DNA of 33,118 nt from Bacteroidales bacterium (GTDB lineage Bacteria > Bacteroidota > Bacteroidia > Bacteroidales > UBA12170). The DNA is taken from the NCBI GenBank assembly GCA_016933745.1, contig JAFGAK010000089.1, positions 1-33,118 on the forward strand, given 5' to 3'. This document shows, in pieces, positions 3,711 to 27,225 of the stretch. The notes beneath the pieces are model-generated. The model saw only the letters and a program-made list of their open reading frames with translations, searched no databases and was not told where the DNA came from. The position numbers and the translations under genes were made by a program. The stretch's first letter is position 1, and the number at the start of each line of letters is the position of its first letter.

Positions 3711-5414
3711 TTATTGTATACTGAATTTCGTTACTTGTCGCTTGTGATCGCCTTTGATTTCGATAAAATAAACTCCTTTACTGAGTTGTTGCAAATTTAA
3801 ATTGTACTGGTAATTAACCTGAATATTTTCTTGAAAAACATTTTGTCCGAGCATATTGCTAACACTGATATCGAAATTTTCGCCTGCCGCATTTTCTGTA
3901 AATCGTAAGAAGAATTGACCATCAGAAGGGTTTGGAAAAAGTGTGAATAAATTATCTTGAATGCTTGTTGGAGTTTCGATTCCAACTGGATTGCCAGACA
4001 GTGTTATTGCTCCGGTATTATCAGGATCTAGCCAAGGTTTAAGTTGTGTATTTGTAGTAGTTCCATTTTTATCCCAATGAAAATTAAATTTTCCGTAATA
4101 ATCGGGTTGTGTTAAGGCGGAGCACGAAGCCCATCCTCCAGTTAAAGTTCCAATTAAAAAGCCATCTTGTGAATAAATAGGCGATCCTGAAGAGCCTCCT
4201 TCTGTAACGCCATGTCCGCTAACTGTTGCCGCCCAAGTTACTTCCCACGATCCGCCAGCAGCACCAATCAATCCGCCACTCATGTAAGTTGCTGAAGATA
4301 AAGGAGTAGTGTAGGTAGATATTTTTTTAATATCGCCTTGCGGATGATGGATCGTTACACCATTTGTACTTCCATTACCAGATCTGTCCCAACCCATAAA
4401 ATAGGCATTGTATTCTACCGGTATGTTTTGATTCAAAAGAACCAAATAAAAGTCGGAGCCTAGAATTCCTGCATTTGAACTTGCTGCAATTTTAGAGCAG
4501 CCGGTCATCGTTCTTGGAATTGGTTCCACAGTTGGAGTTGTACAAGTAGCTGATTGGTAATTGAAATAAAAAATCCACTGACTTAAATCCGTTGTATTTG
4601 AATCGATCCCGCAATGGTCGGCAGTTAATATATAAGGTGTTCGATTTCTTCTTACATTATTTATAACACTTCCTGTACACCAATAGGAAGAGCTTCCTTC
4701 TTTGATTAAAAGGCGTACTACAGAGTTAGTTTGTTTCTCATAGTCGGCTCCTTCCGGGCATTTTACATTTACTTCGCAAGCTCCAGAACCTCTAAATCCA
4801 TAAGCGTTTTTTAAGTCGCTTATTCCTCGATATGCATGTAAAACCTCAGAAACGGTAAAGCGACCAATACCTGCGACATGTGCTGGCTCGTTATATTCGA
4901 TAATTAAACGATCGCCAAAAATAAGTTCCGTTGCGAACAAACCATTTTCCGGATTGTTTGCATCCGTAAAAGAGCCAATCAATTGTTCTTTATCGGGGTT
5001 GTAGATAAAAAGCTTTGCACCTCTAGGTAAATGAAAATCAGAAAAATACAAGCCAATGGCAAGTGCATTTGGCGAACTTATTTCTGCTTTCCAAATGAGA
5101 TTTCCATCTTGATCCTTTGTTCTTTGTCCGAAATCAAGATCAGATAATTTTGCTTCCAGTGGTAATATTTTCCCAAATTCGTAGGCCGTACACAGTTTTC
5201 CAACAGGCTCATTTTTAGTTAAAGAAAATGGAATTTTTGGTGAATAAACAGGGAGGTCGTTGCCTTGAATTTCACGATCAAAAGAGGCCGGAGTACCTCC
5301 ACTACTAATTTGTGCGTGGGTAGATAAGGCTAAAATTAAAAAGATAAAGACCAAGGATTGACCAAAAATAATTTTCGAAAATCGTTTGATTGTTTGGAAT
5401 GAGTTCTTTTTCAT
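3711..5414 (-). CDS. Secreted trypsin-like/lysyl-endopeptidase-like serine protease with T9SS type A sorting domain
   Basis: Signal peptide; triad motifs ILTADHCG, SDFYLVLL, GGSSGSPIY; C-terminal LFPNPSDGQFFLRF...LQQLSKGVYFIEIKGDHKRQVTKFSIQ. Confidence 0.88.
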   Translation of the reverse strand: MKKNSFQTIKRFSKIIFGQSLVFIFLILALSTHAQISSGGTPASFDREIQGNDLPVYSPKIPFSLTKNEPVGKLCTAYEFGKILPLEAKLSDLDFGQRTKDQDGNLIWKAEISSPNALAIGLYFSDFHLPRGAKLFIYNPDKEQLIGSFTDANNPENGLFATELIFGDRLIIEYNEPAHVAGIGRFTVSEVLHAYRGISDLKNAYGFRGSGACEVNVKCPEGADYEKQTNSVVRLLIKEGSSSYWCTGSVINNVRRNRTPYILTADHCGIDSNTTDLSQWIFYFNYQSATCTTPTVEPIPRTMTGCSKIAASSNAGILGSDFYLVLLNQNIPVEYNAYFMGWDRSGNGSTNGVTIHHPQGDIKKISTYTTPLSSATYMSGGLIGAAGGSWEVTWAATVSGHGVTEGGSSGSPIYSQDGFLIGTLTGGWASCSALTQPDYYGKFNFHWDKNGTTTNTQLKPWLDPDNTGAITLSGNPVGIETPTSIQDNLFTLFPNPSDGQFFLRFTENAAGENFDISVSNMLGQNVFQENIQVNYQYNLNLQQLSKGVYFIEIKGDHKRQVTKFSIQ

Positions 5415-7043: not shown

Positions 7044-7074
7044 TTTGGTAAATCTAAAGATTGTTCTACATTTG
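7044..7074 (+). promoter_or_regulatory. Bacteroidetes-type promoter (-33 TTTG / 19 nt / -7 TACATTTG) for the aromatic operon leader
   Basis: TTTG at 7044-7047, 19-nt spacer, TACATTTG at 7067-7074, matching the known TTTG-N~19-TAnnTTTG consensus. Confidence 0.8.
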
Positions 7075-7081
7075 CAAGCGA

Positions 7082-7135
7082 ATGATGACAATTTATACAT
7101 ACAGCTATTTTTATTTTTGGTATTCGAAACCATAG
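7082..7135 (+). CDS. Aromatic leader peptide 1, MMTIYTYSYFYFWYSKP (attenuator)
   Basis: Direct translation; 5 Tyr, 2 Phe and 1 Trp in 17 codons; just downstream of the promoter; upstream of a terminator hairpin and the aromatic biosynthesis operon. Confidence 0.82.
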   Translation: MMTIYTYSYFYFWYSKP

Positions 7136-7136
7136 A

Positions 7137-7178
7137 GGGATTGCTTGTATATAACGATAAAGTACATAAAAGAGTCCC
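7137..7178 (+). promoter_or_regulatory. Candidate antiterminator hairpin 1
   Basis: GGGAUUGCUU (7137-7146, immediately after the leader 1 stop) can pair with AAGAGUCCC (7170-7178), the 5' arm of terminator 1, with one bulged G and one G-U pair. Confidence 0.65.
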
Positions 7179-7203
7179 GAAGTAATTTGGGACTCTTTTT
7201 TTT
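7168..7203 (+). terminator. Attenuator terminator 1
   Basis: AAAAGAGTCCCGAA-GTAA-TTTGGGACTCTTTT followed by T-run; 14-bp stem (one G-U) with a GNRA-type loop. Confidence 0.9.
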
Positions 7204-7214
7204 GAAATAATAGG

Positions 7215-7268
7215 ATGGCAAATAAATATTGGTTTTTTTATTGGACTTATTATTATCTGTTTTACTAG
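7215..7268 (+). CDS. Aromatic leader peptide 2, MANKYWFFYWTYYYLFY (attenuator)
   Basis: Direct translation; 6 Tyr, 3 Phe and 2 Trp in 17 codons; between terminators 1 and 2. Confidence 0.82.
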   Translation: MANKYWFFYWTYYYLFY

Positions 7269-7310
7269 CAGAATGGATGCATATTGGTTAAACCCTTGCT
7301 GAAGTTCTGT
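7268..7310 (+). promoter_or_regulatory. Candidate antiterminator hairpin 2
   Basis: GCAGAAU (7268-7274, overlapping or adjacent to the leader 2 stop) can pair with GUUCUGU (7304-7310), the 5' arm of terminator 2. Confidence 0.5.
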
Positions 7311-7330
7311 GTACGCAGAGCTTTTTTTTT
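7302..7330 (+). terminator. Attenuator terminator 2
   Basis: AAGTTCTG-tgtacg-CAGAGCTT (one G-U) followed by a run of T; directly upstream of the aminotransferase gene. Confidence 0.78.
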
Positions 7331-7338
7331 GAATTTAG

Positions 7339-8517
7339 ATGAATGATAAAGTGATGAAAATAGTTAAAATACAACCCGCAAATAGAGTTAAAGTAGTGGA
7401 TGAATATTATTTCTCCGTTAAGCTTGCCGAAATACGAAAATTAAATGCCGCCGGTGTTTCTATCATCAATTTGGGAATAGGAAATCCGGATTTAGCTCCT
7501 TCCGAAAACACCATAAACGGATTAAAAGAGGCGGTTGAAAATCCTTCTAATCATGGATATCAGAGTTATACAGGAATTCCTGAATTACGAGAAGCATTTG
7601 CGTCTTTTTATAAAGATCGCTATAAGGTGAGCCTAAATTCGGATAGCGAAATTTTGCCTCTCTTAGGTTCCAAAGAAGGAATCATGCATATTTCCCTCGC
7701 TTTTTTGAATGTTGGCGACGAAGTTTTAGTCCCAAATCCAGCTTATCCGGCATACAAAGCGGTTGCATCGCTCTGCGAAGCAAAATCGGTTAGCTACGAT
7801 TTAAGCGAAGAAAACGATTGGTTTCCTGATTTTGAGGCTCTAGAAAAAAGCGATCTATCCAAAGTAAAAATGATGTGGGTTAATTACCCAAATATGCCAA
7901 CAGGAAAGCTAGCAACCAAGCAATTATTTGAGCAGTTAATTGCCTTTGGCAAAAAACATGGAATCTTAATTGTAAATGATAATCCGTATAGTTTAATCAG
8001 TGCGGGAGAGCCAATTAGTATTTTATCTATTGATGGAGCAAAAGAAGTAGCTATTGAGCTCAACTCCTTGAGTAAATCACATAATATGGCCGGTTGGCGT
8101 GTTGGAATGATTGGAGGAAGTGCTGAATTTATTCATGCTATTTTAAGAGTAAAATCAAACATGGATTCTGGCATGTTTAAACCCATTCAATTAGCTGCAG
8201 CTGAGGCATTGAAAAACCCAAACGATTGGTATACAAGTCAGTTAAAAATTTATGCCGACCGCAAAGCGATTGGACAACAGATCCTTTCAGAGTTGGATTG
8301 TACCTTCGATGAAGATTCTTCCGGTATGTTTATTTGGGCTAAAATCCCAGAATCAGCTGAATCGTCTCAAGTTTTCAGCGAAAATATCTTGAAAAACAAA
8401 CATGTTTTTATCACTCCCGGATTTATTTTTGGATCACAAGGCGAACGCTTTATCCGTCTTTCACTAGCAAACAGCAACCAACTACTAAACGAAGCTTTAA
8501 ACCGTATAAAAAACTAA
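7339..8517 (+). CDS. Pyridoxal-phosphate-dependent class I/II aminotransferase (aromatic operon)
   Basis: INLGIGNPDLAPS, YQSYTGIPELREAFASFY, NYPNMPTGKLA, SLSKSHNMAGWRVGM; 392 aa. Confidence 0.93.
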   Translation: MNDKVMKIVKIQPANRVKVVDEYYFSVKLAEIRKLNAAGVSIINLGIGNPDLAPSENTINGLKEAVENPSNHGYQSYTGIPELREAFASFYKDRYKVSLNSDSEILPLLGSKEGIMHISLAFLNVGDEVLVPNPAYPAYKAVASLCEAKSVSYDLSEENDWFPDFEALEKSDLSKVKMMWVNYPNMPTGKLATKQLFEQLIAFGKKHGILIVNDNPYSLISAGEPISILSIDGAKEVAIELNSLSKSHNMAGWRVGMIGGSAEFIHAILRVKSNMDSGMFKPIQLAAAEALKNPNDWYTSQLKIYADRKAIGQQILSELDCTFDEDSSGMFIWAKIPESAESSQVFSENILKNKHVFITPGFIFGSQGERFIRLSLANSNQLLNEALNRIKN

Positions 8518-8520
8518 AAA

Positions 8521-9369
8521 ATGAAAGTATTTATTATTGGATTGGGAATGATTGGAGGTTCTTTGGCCAAAACCTTGCGCAACAGCAATTTTGCTGATGA
8601 AATTCTGGGTTTTGATAAAGCTACAGAGAATACAGCCTTTTGTCTCGAAAACAACTTAATTGATAGATCAGTCTCTATTGTGGAAGGAGCAAAAGAGGCT
8701 GATATCATACTATTAGCTACTCCCGTTGACAGCATTATGGAATTGATACCTCAATTATTGGATCAATTGGAAGAACAAGTTGTAATAGATATGGGATCGA
8801 CCAAGAAAGAGATTTCGAAGCTTGCAGCAACACATCCAAAAGGTTGCAATTTCGTAGCAGCTCATCCGATGGCAGGCATCGAAAATTCAGGGCCAACAGC
8901 CGCTTTGGAGCAGTTGTTTACAGATAAAGTAGCCATCATCTGTAATCCTGAAAATAACGCACGAATGCCATTAAATCTGGCTAAACTCTTCTTTAAATCG
9001 TTAAAAATGAAGCTGATATTTATGGATGCTGAAGAGCACGATCGAGATTTAGCCTATTTATCACATTTATCACATATTTTATCTTTTTCCTTGGCTTTAA
9101 CAGCTTATAATGTGGAAGATAAAGAAAGGAATATTTTCAATCTAGCAGGCGGTGGATTTGCCTCTACCGTTCGATTGGCTGGAAGCTCAGCTGCGATGTG
9201 GAACCCTGTTTTTCTTCAAAATAAAACCAATATGCTTGAAGCTCTCGAACTCTATATTTCAAACCTGAATTTGTTTAGAGAACATATCAAAAACGAAAAT
9301 AAAGAAGGATTAAATCAATTAATGAATAAATCGAACGCAATCTATAAAATCATAAATCAATCGATATGA
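8521..9369 (+). CDS. tyrA: Prephenate dehydrogenase
   Basis: MKVFIIGLGMIGGSLAKTLR Rossmann motif; AAHPMAGIENSGP; LSHILSFSLAL; operon context. Confidence 0.92.
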   Translation: MKVFIIGLGMIGGSLAKTLRNSNFADEILGFDKATENTAFCLENNLIDRSVSIVEGAKEADIILLATPVDSIMELIPQLLDQLEEQVVIDMGSTKKEISKLAATHPKGCNFVAAHPMAGIENSGPTAALEQLFTDKVAIICNPENNARMPLNLAKLFFKSLKMKLIFMDAEEHDRDLAYLSHLSHILSFSLALTAYNVEDKERNIFNLAGGGFASTVRLAGSSAAMWNPVFLQNKTNMLEALELYISNLNLFREHIKNENKEGLNQLMNKSNAIYKIINQSI

Positions 9370-10460
9370 AAACAAAACTAGACTTACTACCTGTTAACGA
9401 ATGGGGAATTAAATACCATGGCAGACCACTTTTAATGTCGGGGCCTTGCAGTGCAGAAACGGAAGAGCAAGTATTACAAACTGCACAAGCACTGGCTGAT
9501 AGCGGAGTATCTGTATTTAGAGCCGGAATTTGGAAACCACGCACTAGACCAAATAGTTTCGAAGGAGTGGGAGCCGAGGGATTAAAATGGTTGAGCAAAG
9601 TGAAGAAAGAAACCGGTTTAAAAGTAGCTACTGAAGTTGCAAATGCAAAACATACTTACGAGGCGCTCAAACACAATGTGGATGTGCTCTGGATTGGCGC
9701 AAGAACAACCGTGAATCCTTTTGCTGTTCAAGAAATTGCCGATGCATTGGAAGGAGTTGATATTCCTGTATTTATCAAAAATCCGATTAATCCGGATATT
9801 GAGTTATGGATTGGCGCATTGGAACGTATCAATAAAGCTGGAATCACCAAGCTTGGCGCGATTCATAGAGGATTTAGCAGTTATGGCGATGCTGCTTTTC
9901 GGAATGCACCAAATTGGCAAATTCCCATCGAACTTAAAAGACGTTTTCCTGAGCTAATCTTAGTCAATGATCCAAGTCATATTGGTGGTAAAAGAGAACT
10001 TTTAAGAGAAATTTCGCAAAAAGCAATGGATTTGGATTTTGATGGATTGATGATTGAAGTACATCCAAATCCGGATGAAGCTTGGAGCGATGCTAAGCAA
10101 CAAATTACTCCCGATGTATTCAAAGAATTAGTTGCTTCTTTAAAAATCAGAACCAAAGGAAGTGGACAGGAAGAGCAATCGCGTTTATGCGAATTGCGTA
10201 AAAAAATTGACCATTTCGACGATGAATTAATGGATATTATCGAAGCTAGAATGAAAGTAGCCGAAGAAATTGGGGAGTTCAAACGCGAAAATAATATTGT
10301 TGTTTTGCAAAATAGTCGTTGGAATGAAATCCTAGAGCAAAGCATTGCTGTTGGACAATCCAAAGGTCTCAGTTCAGATTTGATAACACGGATTTTCAAA
10401 GCCATTCACCAAGAAAGTATCAACAAACAAACTGAAATTATTAATCGCGTTTTAGTCTAA
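9366..10460 (+). CDS. Bifunctional 3-deoxy-7-phosphoheptulonate synthase / chorismate mutase
   Basis: N-terminal LLMSGPCSAETEEQV...FRAGIWKPRTRPNSFEGVG...IHRGFSS...DPSHIGGKRELL; C-terminal chorismate mutase LCELRKKIDHFDDELMDIIEARMKVAEEIGEFKRENN. Overlaps the tyrA stop by ATGA. Confidence 0.94.
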   Translation: MKTKLDLLPVNEWGIKYHGRPLLMSGPCSAETEEQVLQTAQALADSGVSVFRAGIWKPRTRPNSFEGVGAEGLKWLSKVKKETGLKVATEVANAKHTYEALKHNVDVLWIGARTTVNPFAVQEIADALEGVDIPVFIKNPINPDIELWIGALERINKAGITKLGAIHRGFSSYGDAAFRNAPNWQIPIELKRRFPELILVNDPSHIGGKRELLREISQKAMDLDFDGLMIEVHPNPDEAWSDAKQQITPDVFKELVASLKIRTKGSGQEEQSRLCELRKKIDHFDDELMDIIEARMKVAEEIGEFKRENNIVVLQNSRWNEILEQSIAVGQSKGLSSDLITRIFKAIHQESINKQTEIINRVLV

Positions 10461-10463
10461 ATC

Positions 10464-11720
10464 ATGATTGCAAAAGTTTATCCGGCAACAATCAATGGCT
10501 CCCTGCAAGCACCAGCTTCAAAAAGCATGCTTCAGCGAGCCATTGCGGCTGCATTTCTGAGTAAATCTAAAATTCAAATTTCAGGCTATACGCCAAGTGC
10601 AGATGCAGATGCTGCTTTGGCATTGATCGAAAAACTAGGGTCAAAAGTAAATAGAAATCAAGATCTCATCGAGATTAATTCGGGTGATTTTATTGACCCG
10701 CAACAGCAATTAACGATTGGCGAATCGGGCTTGGGAATTCGACTTTTTTCTCCAATTTTAGCGACTTTCAAAATCAAATTTCGAATTGAAGCCGAAGGAA
10801 CGCTAAGAAAAAGACCGCTTCGTTTGATCGAAGATGTTTTGAGTAAAAACGGCGTTTCGTGTTCTACGAATCAAGGATTTGCGCCAATTGAGATTATTGG
10901 CCCGCTCAAAGGTGGAACTATTTCGTTGGATGCAAGTGAAGGTTCTCAGTTTTTAAGTGGATTATTGATGGCATTGCCTATTAGCCATGTTGATAGCACC
11001 ATTCAGGTTCGTAACTTAAAAAGTAAGCCTTATATCGATATGACCATGCAGTTATTAACCGATTTTGGTGTAAACGTGCAGCATACAGAATACAAAACAT
11101 TTTCGATCAAAGGAAATCAAAACTATCGTGCTAAAAAGTACAAAGTGGAAGGCGATTGGAGTGGAGCAGCCTTTTTGTTAGTTGCAGGAGCAATTGCCGG
11201 AAAATTAACGCTTAAAAATATTCACCAAAATTCTTTGCAAGGCGATAAAAATTGTGTGAAAGTTTTGGAACAATCCGGTGCAATTGTTCTGCAAAAAGAA
11301 AAGGAAATTCGTGTGCAGAAACGAGTGTTGCATGCGTTTGAATACGACGCCACTGAAACGCCGGATTTATTTCCACCTTTAGCTGCATTGGCTGCATCTT
11401 GCGAAGGTGTGAGTATAATCTCAGGTGTAAACCGACTGGAACATAAAGAAAGTAATCGGGCAGAAGCAATTCGGAGTGTTTTAGAAAAGCTTGGTATCAA
11501 AGTGAAAATTGTGGACGATGAAATGCATATTCATGGCGGTAAAGTAAAAGGTGCTGTTGTTTCATCTTTTCACGATCATCGAATAGCAATGATGGCAGCA
11601 GTGATGGCGTTAAATTCAGAAAGCGAAATAGAAATTACGGACGCAGAAAGTATAAATAAATCCTATCCTGGATTTTACGAAGATCTTCAGAAATTAGGTG
11701 TTCCGATTCAGTTTTCTTAA
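10464..11720 (+). CDS. aroA: 3-phosphoshikimate 1-carboxyvinyltransferase (EPSP synthase)
   Basis: GSLQAPASKSMLQRAIAAA, GESGLGIRLFSPI, EGSQFLSGLLMALP, HDHRIAMMAAVMAL. Confidence 0.94.
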   Translation: MIAKVYPATINGSLQAPASKSMLQRAIAAAFLSKSKIQISGYTPSADADAALALIEKLGSKVNRNQDLIEINSGDFIDPQQQLTIGESGLGIRLFSPILATFKIKFRIEAEGTLRKRPLRLIEDVLSKNGVSCSTNQGFAPIEIIGPLKGGTISLDASEGSQFLSGLLMALPISHVDSTIQVRNLKSKPYIDMTMQLLTDFGVNVQHTEYKTFSIKGNQNYRAKKYKVEGDWSGAAFLLVAGAIAGKLTLKNIHQNSLQGDKNCVKVLEQSGAIVLQKEKEIRVQKRVLHAFEYDATETPDLFPPLAALAASCEGVSIISGVNRLEHKESNRAEAIRSVLEKLGIKVKIVDDEMHIHGGKVKGAVVSSFHDHRIAMMAAVMALNSESEIEITDAESINKSYPGFYEDLQKLGVPIQFS

Positions 11721-23385: not shown

Positions 23386-26300
23386 ATGAAACGGTTCATC
23401 CTTCAAACCATTTTATTGTTTGTAACTTTGAGTTTATTTGCTCAGGAACATCGACTAGCAATTCTTGATTTTACGGACCGAAATGGCGAAATCAATAAAG
23501 AAAACTTAGCCAGTGCATCGCATATGGCTGAAGTTGCCGGAATGCCTTTTTCTATTACTATAAATGTTGAAGAAGCAGTCAATTTTCCTTTTATACTCAT
23601 CACTTCTTCGTTAAGAGAGGAGACAACATCAGAAAACGAAATTACCTTATTACATAATTATGTTCGCGATGGCGGAATCCTAATTGCTCCTTTCATTAAA
23701 AGCGAGCTTTATTTTGATTTGTTTGGAATTAGTTACAGTAAATACGAATCGAATCGATATCTGTTGACATGGGATTTGGAAACAGCATCTCCAGAGTTAA
23801 AATGGATCAACGATGCAAACGAAATAGAACTTCCATTGGCAGATACAGCGTATTACAAATCCATCTATACAAGAGGATATACCACAAGTGTAAGTCAGGC
23901 TCTAGCGCACTTTGAAGACGAAGCTGCCGCCATTACTGTAAATAATTTTGGAGCAGGAAAAGCCTATGCTCTGGGATTTGAACTTCGTGATTTGGTCATG
24001 CGCAATCTATTGAACAAAGATTACAATGCCAATCGAATGTATTCGAATGGTTTTGAGCCTACTACAGATGTAATTCTGCTTTTTTTAAGAGCAATTTATA
24101 CGGAAAATCAACCTGTGGCTATTTATAAACATACTTCTCCCAAAAATTCAACATCTGCTTTGCTTATTACGCACGATGTGGATAGTCAAACAGGTGTCGA
24201 TTCGATGTATTATTTTTCTGAATGGGAAGCTAGGAATAATATACAAGCACATTATTTCATTACTACACGCTATTTTTCCGATGGTTTGATGGGCGATTTT
24301 TACGATGAAGCTGGCTACGGAAAAATGAAGCAATTATTGCTCGATGGTCATCAAATTGGAAGTCATTCGGTTGGTCATTTCCCTGATTTTGCAAACCGCA
24401 CACTTTTTCCACAAACAACTATTGGGAATACCAAAGAAAGCTATCAACCAAGTAACCACGATGGAGTTACTTCTGGTGGAAGCTTAACTGCTGAACTCGA
24501 AGTTTCTAGAGATTTATTAAATGCTGATATTGGCGCACATGTGCGTTCATTCAGAGCCGGACATTTGGCTTTTAATTTGCGTTTAATCAATGAAATGGAT
24601 GTTTTGGGTTATTCGTTTAACTCGACGAACAGTGCGAACGATGTTTTAACAAATTTCCCTTATCAGCAACGAACTAATTCTGCTTTTAGCGGCGTTCCTA
24701 GTGCTGTTTATGAAATCCCGATGACTATGTCGGATGCTTCTAAATCGATCAAACTGACCGAAGAAACGATTGATGAGGTGGTTGAAAATTGGTTAGGCAT
24801 TTTAGAGAAAAACAACGATAACAATGCGCCAACTGTTTTATTGATTCATCCAAATAGGGGTTGGAAATTACAAACATTGGAGAATTTAATGGCTTTAAAA
24901 CCAAGTTCGGTTATTCCTTTTGAATTTGATGCTTTTGGCGATTTTTGGCTTGAGAGAAAAGCGCTCGATTTTAATTATACATTTCACCAAGATACACTTC
25001 AAATTGATTTAGTTTCCGAACATGCGGTGAGCGAAAACCAAAGTTTAATCATTACAGGTGGAAAGGCAATTGCCCATATTTTAGTGTATAATCAAGCTGG
25101 TGAAAAACTCGAATTTCAATCTTTTGATTGGAATGAAAATGATCTTTTAATTAGTTCTTTCCAAACAGAGGATGATACAGATCCTGAAATCGTTAAAGAT
25201 TTACATAGCTTAGCAATTTGGGATATTTGCGATTTGCTTGGCGAAACAGATAAAGAAAATCTGGTAAGTGCCACTCATATGGCTGATGTCGCCGGAATTC
25301 CTTATTCTGTTACTACGTCTTTGGATGAAGCAATGACCATGGATTTTGTTTTGATTACCTCGCAAATTGAAGTGGAAACACTTTCGATTGACCAAATTAA
25401 TCAATTGAAAGATTATGTGGCCAATGGCGGAATTTTAATGGCTCCGTTTATCAAGAATACTTTGCTTTTCGATTTGTTTGGTATTGCTTCTACCAAGTTG
25501 GATAAATACAGATACACGCTAAGCTGGGTTGATAATCCACAATTTTTTGAATTGAAGTGGATGGACGATCCGATGGAAAAAACGATTCCTTTGGCCGATG
25601 CAGATTATTATCGTTCGATTTATACAAGAGGATATACTTTGGCATCTGCACAAGCTTTGGCTTATTTTGAAGATGAAAAAGTAGCCGTTTGTAAAAATAC
25701 ATACGGAAATGGAGCTGCTTATGCTTTTGGTGTGGAATGGAAAGATGTAGTGCTTCGGAATCTGTTGAATAAAGATTACGATTCACAGCGTACCTATTCC
25801 AATGGATTTGAGCCTGCAACAGATGCTTTCTTGCTTGCACTTCGTGCGATATTTACAGGAAACCAAGCGGTTTCGGTTTATAAACATACTTCACCGGGAG
25901 AGTCAACAGCTACTCTTTTGATTACACACGATGTAGATAGTAGAACGATTATTGATACCATGCATTATTTTTCGAATTGGGAATTCTTGCAAGAATTAAG
26001 TGCGCATTATTTTGTTACTACGCACTATTTCAAAGATACTTACATGAGTGCCTATTACGAAGAATCTAAATTTGATAAAATTAAAGAGTTGATCGAAAGA
26101 AATCATACGGTTGGAAGCCATTCTGTTGGTCATTTCCCCGATTTCTCCAAAACATCTGTTTTCCCAACAGGTGAGCCAGGTAATACCAAAGAAAATTACA
26201 ATCCGTATTACAATGGTTCGTATACCGAGGGAGGAACAGTCTATGGTGAAGTAGAAGTTTCGCGTGATTTACTAAACAACGATATCCATGCGAATGTACG

Positions 26301-27225
26301 CTCATACAGATCCGGCGCAATGGCTTTCAATACGCATTTGGCCAATGTGCTCGAAGACATGGATTATAGCTTTAATTCGTCTGAAAGTGCGAATAATGTT
26401 TTAACCAATTTCCCATTCTATCAGCGTACAAATAAATCTTTTAGCGGAACTCCTTTAAAATTACTGGAAATCCCAATGACTTTAACGGATGTATCGAGCC
26501 ATCTTAAATTAGAATCCACAAATATCGACGAAGTAGTGGCAGCTTGGATTGATGTGATCGAGAAGAACAATCGCAATAATGCACCTAGTGTATTACTGAT
26601 TTCACCTAACAGAGGCTGGAAATTAGAAGCTTTGCAAAAATTACTTCTAGGGATTCCTGAAGGTGTAATTACCTATAATTTTGAAGATTATGGCGATTAT
26701 TGGTTAGATAGGAATGCTCTAGATTTTGATTATTACATCGATCATGGAATATTAAATGTAGAAGTAAACTCAGGTGTTTTAGCTCAGGATTTAAGTTTTG
26801 TGGTTGAAAACGGATCCATGCTAAATCAGATAAAAGTAAAAGATTCCGATGGTATGGATGTTGCCTTCCATGTTAAAAATTGGAATACAAACGACTTGCT
26901 TATTACTTTTGGCGAAAATAATTTACGCGAAAAGCATTCAGCAAAGATTGATGTCCCTCAATTGATTGAAGAATCGAAGTTTAACTTGTTCCCAAATCCG
27001 ACACAATCCTTTGTAAACTTGCTGTTTGATGTGGAAGCAAAAGCAGCATATCGTGTTTGGATAACGGATATCAATGGGCGTGTTCTTTTCGAATTTGAAG
27101 GAATTGCAAACGAAGGCGCTACCATGCATCGTTTGGATTTATCTGGATATAAAGCTGGAATGTACTTGGTTAATCTGCAATCGGATTCAGCATCGGAAAC
27201 TAAGAAATTGTTTGTAACCGAATGA
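23386..27225 (+). CDS. Secreted protein with two tandem polysaccharide-deacetylase-like modules and T9SS sorting domain
   Basis: Signal peptide; LLITHDVDS and GSHSVGHFPDF motifs occur twice; internal duplication with about 585-aa period; C-terminal FNLFPNPTQSFVNL...SGYKAGMYLVNLQSDSASETKKLFVTE. Confidence 0.85.
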   Translation: MKRFILQTILLFVTLSLFAQEHRLAILDFTDRNGEINKENLASASHMAEVAGMPFSITINVEEAVNFPFILITSSLREETTSENEITLLHNYVRDGGILIAPFIKSELYFDLFGISYSKYESNRYLLTWDLETASPELKWINDANEIELPLADTAYYKSIYTRGYTTSVSQALAHFEDEAAAITVNNFGAGKAYALGFELRDLVMRNLLNKDYNANRMYSNGFEPTTDVILLFLRAIYTENQPVAIYKHTSPKNSTSALLITHDVDSQTGVDSMYYFSEWEARNNIQAHYFITTRYFSDGLMGDFYDEAGYGKMKQLLLDGHQIGSHSVGHFPDFANRTLFPQTTIGNTKESYQPSNHDGVTSGGSLTAELEVSRDLLNADIGAHVRSFRAGHLAFNLRLINEMDVLGYSFNSTNSANDVLTNFPYQQRTNSAFSGVPSAVYEIPMTMSDASKSIKLTEETIDEVVENWLGILEKNNDNNAPTVLLIHPNRGWKLQTLENLMALKPSSVIPFEFDAFGDFWLERKALDFNYTFHQDTLQIDLVSEHAVSENQSLIITGGKAIAHILVYNQAGEKLEFQSFDWNENDLLISSFQTEDDTDPEIVKDLHSLAIWDICDLLGETDKENLVSATHMADVAGIPYSVTTSLDEAMTMDFVLITSQIEVETLSIDQINQLKDYVANGGILMAPFIKNTLLFDLFGIASTKLDKYRYTLSWVDNPQFFELKWMDDPMEKTIPLADADYYRSIYTRGYTLASAQALAYFEDEKVAVCKNTYGNGAAYAFGVEWKDVVLRNLLNKDYDSQRTYSNGFEPATDAFLLALRAIFTGNQAVSVYKHTSPGESTATLLITHDVDSRTIIDTMHYFSNWEFLQELSAHYFVTTHYFKDTYMSAYYEESKFDKIKELIERNHTVGSHSVGHFPDFSKTSVFPTGEPGNTKENYNPYYNGSYTEGGTVYGEVEVSRDLLNNDIHANVRSYRSGAMAFNTHLANVLEDMDYSFNSSESANNVLTNFPFYQRTNKSFSGTPLKLLEIPMTLTDVSSHLKLESTNIDEVVAAWIDVIEKNNRNNAPSVLLISPNRGWKLEALQKLLLGIPEGVITYNFEDYGDYWLDRNALDFDYYIDHGILNVEVNSGVLAQDLSFVVENGSMLNQIKVKDSDGMDVAFHVKNWNTNDLLITFGENNLREKHSAKIDVPQLIEESKFNLFPNPTQSFVNLLFDVEAKAAYRVWITDINGRVLFEFEGIANEGATMHRLDLSGYKAGMYLVNLQSDSASETKKLFVTE
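23446..26925 (+). repeat. Intragenic tandem duplication (unit about 1755 bp, copies starting near 23446 and 25201)
   Basis: Collinear homologous protein segments, e.g. YYKSIYTRGYTTSVSQALAHFEDE / YYRSIYTRGYTLASAQALAYFEDE and RNLLNKDYNANRMYSNGFEPTTD / RNLLNKDYDSQRTYSNGFEPATD. Confidence 0.92.

Follow-up and report, generated by a model that had tools for sequence, protein, structure and literature searches.

The window, that is, the whole stretch of 33,118 nucleotides from an uncultured Bacteroidales bacterium that was analyzed here, carries an aromatic amino acid operon on the plus strand. The gene order aminotransferase-tyrA-DAHPS/CM-aroA, proposed by an earlier reading made from the sequence alone (hereafter the sequence-only reading), was borne out by matches to domain and family profiles. 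The operon contains no pheA; the pheA of the same genome is located on a separate contig (L144, G000:C240). The trpE and hisG genes, sought as controls for trp and his leaders, were not found in this assembly, which is 76% complete. The window also encodes two large proteins that have a type IX secretion sorting domain (TIGR04183) at the C terminus, at 3711–5414 on the minus strand and at 23386–27225 on the plus strand. The features of the operon and of the region preceding it are as follows.

7044–7074, plus strand: Bacteroidota-type promoter, with −33 TTTG at 7044–7047 and −7 TACATTTG at 7067–7074 (consensus TAnnTTTG)
7082–7135, plus strand: leader ORF 1, MMTIYTYSYFYFWYSKP, 17 codons, 8/17 aromatic, stop TAG at 7133–7135
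7137–7142, plus strand: strand 2 of the module 1 antiterminator, GGGAUU, immediately following the stop, pairing with AGUCCC at 7173–7178
7168–7203, plus strand: intrinsic terminator 1, strand 3 AAAAGAGUCCCGAA, loop GUAA, strand 4 UUUGGGACUCUUUU, T-run
7215–7268, plus strand: leader ORF 2, MANKYWFFYWTYYYLFY, 17 codons, 11/17 aromatic, stop TAG at 7266–7268
7269–7274, plus strand: strand 2 of the module 2 antiterminator, CAGAAU, immediately following the stop, pairing with GUUCUG at 7304–7309
7301–7330, plus strand: intrinsic terminator 2, strand 3 GAAGUUCUGU, loop GUAC, strand 4 GCAGAGCUUU, T-run
7339–8517, plus strand: aat, aminotransferase class I/II, first structural gene (PF00155)
8521–9369, plus strand: tyrA, prephenate dehydrogenase (PF02153, PF20463; NF006307 above cut-off)
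9366–10460, plus strand: DAHP synthase/chorismate mutase (PF00793, PF01817)
10464–11720, plus strand: aroA, EPSP synthase (PF00275; TIGR01356 above cut-off)

Two complete modules, each with a leader ORF rich in aromatic codons, a candidate antiterminator strand, and a terminator, had been claimed to stand in series before the operon. Both were present at that place, and the two leader ORFs had exactly the translations given by the sequence-only reading. Leader 1 starts with an ATG at 7082, followed by a second ATG at 7085, and contains one Trp codon, and leader 2 contains two; Tyr, Phe, and Trp codons are mixed in both. The rho-independent terminators claimed for both modules were also recovered by computation as stems with T-runs: terminator 1 has a 14-bp stem at 7168–7199 (−19.2 kcal/mol) with a T-run to 7203, and terminator 2, weaker by predicted energy, has a 10-bp stem at 7301–7324 (−10.7 kcal/mol) with a T-run to approximately 7330. 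The overall fold of module 2 was no more stable than that of shuffled sequences (z −0.09). We ruled out terminator 1 as the end of the upstream gene because that gene lies on the opposite strand.

The corresponding upstream stretch was read in 219 distinct loci, and in 210 of these it is not truncated by the end of a contig. The operon of most relatives begins with pheA, which the leader then precedes. An aromatic leader ORF preceded the operon in 204 of the 210 Bacteroidota loci, and a leader with a terminator satisfied a strict rule in 183. The 27 loci that failed this rule were mostly leaders with bulged or otherwise missed terminators, as in Bacteroides fragilis (L221), and 21 of them hold a leader ORF. 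Examples come from B. fragilis, Parabacteroides, Dysgonomonas, Paludibacter, and Flavobacterium, as well as Tenacibaculum, Algibacter, Aquimarina, Flectobacillus, and Pseudarcicella. The presence of the leader in nearly all loci marks the single module as a feature of this operon across the whole phylum. Double modules were found in 42 loci from approximately 39 organisms; 36 were called automatically, and six (L010, L033, L049, L060, L089, and L094) were added by reading, with L049 counted as a double even though only its first terminator, not its first leader ORF, was seen. The doubles span at least 16 families of Bacteroidales, plus Phaeodactylibacter outside the order; the latter double belongs to a cultured species, Phaeodactylibacter xiamenensis (L216). 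Parsimony required at least eight changes between the single and double states on the aminotransferase (aat) tree and at least 11 on the pheA tree. These counts cannot separate gain from loss, and the double form is inferred to have arisen or vanished repeatedly. Some doubles look like tandem duplicates (Smith–Waterman score of 50 for L064/L159, against a mean of 17.8 between loci), and others are not recognizable as such by sequence.

The promoter consensus TAnnTTTG precedes leader 1 in 151 of 183 loci, whereas approximately 0.14 occurrences are expected per 170 nt. It was absent between the modules in all 36 automatically called doubles, which rules out a separate promoter of this type for module 2. 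Since the consensus occurs only before module 1, the two modules are most likely co-transcribed, as inferred from promoter placement, and would be passed in order on one transcript. One study (PMC9723704) places the Bacteroidota promoter box at −12 to −5 relative to the transcript start. The distance from the box to leader 1 is 7 to 8 nt in the genus (7067–7084 in the window, and L003–L008), and its median over all loci is 24 nt. Given these positions, transcription very probably begins near 7079, approximately 3 nt before leader 1, and the predicted 5′ UTR in the genus is only 3 to 4 nt, which would make leader 1 nearly leaderless. Translation of leader 2 would need internal initiation.

We then compared leader codons with operon content. 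The mean Tyr/(Tyr+Phe) ratio of the leaders was 0.43 when pheA is in the operon and 0.67 when it is not (p = 8e-17, uncorrected for relatedness); with relatedness controlled on the tree, four independent pairs changed in the expected direction and none against it (4:0, p = 0.125). The operon of the window, without pheA, has Tyr-rich leaders. The separate pheA of this genome (L144) has its own short leader ORF, MNNDRLISRFFLFSMHFC, with four Phe codons and no Tyr or Trp codon, and a terminator, AGAAGTCCCGG-CAAA-TCGGGACTTTT, stands directly before the gene. In three Cytophagia-type operons without an upstream pheA (L180, L184, and L187, from Flectobacillus, Pseudarcicella, and Siphonobacter), the leaders have runs of Tyr and almost no Phe, for example, MNLTINTYRTYYYYYGTPA. 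Such a match between codons and product is what a starvation sensor would need and is hard to account for in any other way. The Tyr-rich leaders, together with the Phe-only leader on the separate pheA, argue for Tyr as the main inferred signal in this genus, with Phe and Trp being secondary.

The codon data also bear on the possibility that the two modules sense different signals, for example, Tyr at one and Trp/Phe at the other, and form an AND gate as in the mgtCBR leader. The two attenuators of mgtCBR do respond to different signals (PMC3641672), and the window leaders differ in their number of Trp codons, one against two. However, Tyr, Phe, and Trp are mixed in both of these leaders, and across the 36 doubles, the Tyr share was equal in the first and second modules (0.53 and 0.51, p = 0.61). 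On codon make-up alone, a different specificity of the two leaders is not favored across the doubles, and we consider an AND gate at this locus unlikely.

It is also conceivable that only one module works and that the other is an intact-looking relic of duplication or drift. The tandem-duplicate appearance of L064/L159 suggests that copies arise and could decay, and module 2 of the window has both the weaker terminator and the weaker antiterminator duplex. Conservation within the genus speaks against this. The window and six genomes with an orthologous operon (69–75% aminotransferase identity) form a set of seven loci, and the sequence-only reading would have been refuted if the short ORFs and hairpins were not conserved among such close relatives. 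Both ORFs are open and both terminators are kept in all seven at 67 to 88% DNA identity, with the stems 97 to 99% paired (96.9% of cells for terminator 1 and 98.6% for terminator 2). Leader 1 has 17 codons and no indels in any of the seven members, and the aromatic core of leader 2 around YYYL is conserved within the genus. The same reading had called for compensatory changes in both kinds of stem, and this held only in part. In module 1, G004 has AGGAUU as strand 2 and AGUCCU as strand 3, a replacement of G-C by A-U in which both strands changed, and G007 has GGGGAAA as strand 2 and AGUUCC as strand 3, in which GGAA can pair with UUCC; these paired changes in the antiterminator are few events. 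The pair changes in the terminators were mostly one-sided G-U/A-U exchanges and did not exceed those obtained by shuffling. Two further loci grouped in the same genus, L044 and L048 (G003 and G009), have an aminotransferase of a different lineage (50–52% identity); their operon includes pheA and comes with a different pair of modules, which may point to operon replacement within the genus.

A candidate antiterminator right after each stop had likewise been claimed, and one is present in each module of the window. The extended duplex of module 1 was −10.5 kcal/mol, with 3 of 60 shuffles as good, and the duplex of module 2 was −7.3 kcal/mol, with 5 of 60 as good; CAGAAU (7269–7274) has a second pairing partner in UCUG, close to where leader 2 ends. 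These values are acceptable but taken alone not decisive, and module 2 is weak. Among the genus mates, the antiterminator of module 2 reached −11.9 to −12.7 kcal/mol in G005, G007, and G010 (0 to 1 of 60 shuffles as good) and was no better than chance in L003, L004, and L006 (12 to 39 of 60).

Pairing was assessed over 221 modules, using the segment that separates the aromatic core from the terminator against the terminator's 5′ arm. A comparison of aromatic content among reading frames was set aside as evidence because the ORFs had been chosen for aromatic codons. The mean strand-2 duplex was −13.3 kcal/mol, compared with −7.0 kcal/mol for shuffled stretches and −8.6 kcal/mol when partners were swapped among loci, and 82% of the modules fell within the best 5% of their shuffles. 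In the doubles, pairing within the same module (−12.1 kcal/mol) was stronger than pairing across modules (−7.7 kcal/mol, p = 1.5e-11), and 67% of first modules and 75% of second modules were in the best 5%. The p-values of these pairing tests are only nominal because related loci are not independent. The advantage of same-module over swapped and cross-module pairing indicates that each module has its own matched switch. Since doubles occur repeatedly, in at least 16 families, and their antiterminators are module-specific at both positions, it is quite improbable that either module is a nonfunctional remnant.

In 182 strong cases, strand 2 started inside the ORF tail (117) or within 15 nt past the stop (65) and never beyond, which is the region that a ribosome positioned on the stop codon would occupy. 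An aromatic ORF whose stop lies at or close to strand 2 is the hallmark of ribosome sensing. This arrangement weighs against a T-box riboswitch or a protein-bound antiterminator, even though such devices control terminators of aromatic genes in other phyla. An Rfam scan of the whole window gave no family at the gathering score, and a permissive scan of the region gave Phe_leader (RF01859) at only 26.4 bits, far below the cut-off of 55; neither the Bacteroid-trp motif (RF01692), in the curated-cut-off or the permissive scan, nor the T-box covariance model, in the window or the permissive region scan, was matched. Rfam therefore gives no support for membership in the T-box, Bacteroid-trp, or Phe_leader families, and we regard direct tRNA or protein control as very improbable here. 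Finally, AT-rich DNA can by chance yield Phe/Tyr-rich ORFs and T-runs, and the region is 70% A+T, but none of 3000 dinucleotide-preserving shuffles of 7044–7338 gave even one module (an ORF core with at least eight aromatics per 16 codons plus a terminator; 92 of 3000 gave an aromatic ORF without a terminator), and this result, together with the conservation in all seven genus members and the phylum-wide presence, refutes chance to near certainty.

We consider it highly likely, in the absence of transcript, 3′-end, or ribosome data, that the region contains two ribosome-mediated transcription attenuators in series. The attenuator mechanism put forward by the sequence-only reading thus gains support from conservation in the genus, from the occurrence of modules throughout the phylum, and from the module-specific complementarity between strands 2 and 3. 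In the proposed mechanism, a ribosome would trail the polymerase on leader 1. With ample charged tRNA for Tyr (and Phe and Trp), the ribosome would reach the stop codon and cover strand 2, the terminator arms would pair, and transcription would stop at about 7203. If aromatic tRNA is scarce, the ribosome would stall in the aromatic codons, and strand 2, left uncovered, would pair with the terminator's 5′ arm, letting the polymerase pass. The same test would be repeated at leader 2 and terminator 2 before the polymerase enters aat. Ribosome stalling, termination, and readthrough are all inferred, and coupling of transcription and translation in Bacteroidota is assumed. The arrangement suggests a two-step gate that senses a shortage of aromatic amino acids. 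By inference, without expression data, passing two gates in succession would leave less basal expression than a single gate and make the response steeper, as in the multiplicative sharpening first envisaged. A signal made up equally of Tyr, Phe, and Trp starvation, as in that proposal, is likewise only inferred.

Ribosome-mediated attenuation is classical in the trp and pheA operons of Proteobacteria (trpL and pheL; Rfam RF00513 and RF01859). As in trpL and pheL, a short ORF rich in codons for the product precedes an amino acid biosynthesis operon here, and a strand-2/3 antiterminator is the alternative to a strand-3/4 terminator. Unlike trpL and pheL, two complete modules stand in series in a different phylum, strand 2 lies directly after the stop or in the ORF tail, and no Rfam model matches at its cut-off. 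The Salmonella mgtCBR leader has tandem attenuators, mgtM and mgtP, that sense ATP and proline, act additively, and control virulence and Mg transport genes, an arrangement that its authors call a singular example (PMC3641672). The present region resembles it in having two successive leader ORFs, most likely on one transcript, that each come with a separate alternative structure; here, however, both are aromatic-codon sensors with their own intrinsic terminators on a biosynthetic operon, and the double arrangement is found repeatedly, in many families. Tandem T-boxes and tandem riboswitches are also serial RNA switches ahead of one operon, but they sense by direct binding of tRNA or ligand (PMC7583486, PMC5912903), whereas sensing by ribosome stalling on codons is proposed here.

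Within Bacteroidota, leader-peptide control of amino acid operons has already been suspected, judging from the accessible parts of the sources: the Bacteroid-trp motif (RF01692) is a case of suspected leader-peptide type attenuation (PMC2864571), and clues to leader peptides were noted upstream of amino acid operons in Flavobacterium psychrophilum (PMC9723704). Those parts of the two papers describe no tandem modules and no pheA/aat/tyrA/aroF leader. Short ORFs reminiscent of leader peptides have also been reported in Bacteroides thetaiotaomicron (PMC7366714). In the literature covered, which excluded subscription papers and supplementary tables, we found neither same-class attenuators in series on an amino acid operon nor a description of the phylum-wide aromatic leader. 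The single leader may already be known, because subscription papers, including the comparative work on attenuation that Lopatovskaya and colleagues published in 2010 (cited in PMC4833913), were outside this coverage. The principle is known; what is new, within the literature covered, is two same-class attenuators in series on an amino acid operon, recurring across the phylum. We lean toward the view that Bacteroidota repeatedly evolved two-step attenuation of the same specificity, a steep, low-leak gate with leader codons matching the end product of the operon.

The finding implies close coupling of transcription and translation in Bacteroidota. These bacteria are known for their limited use of Shine–Dalgarno sequences. 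It also implies that the codon make-up of the leaders changes in evolution along with the gene content of the operon, and it provides an annotation rule for small ORFs that are widely missed in bacteria of the gut, the sea, and soil. The operon occurs with one attenuator in some organisms and with two in others, with a minimum of 11 state changes, and so offers a natural comparative series, in which the benefit of a second gate of the same kind to the cell becomes testable.
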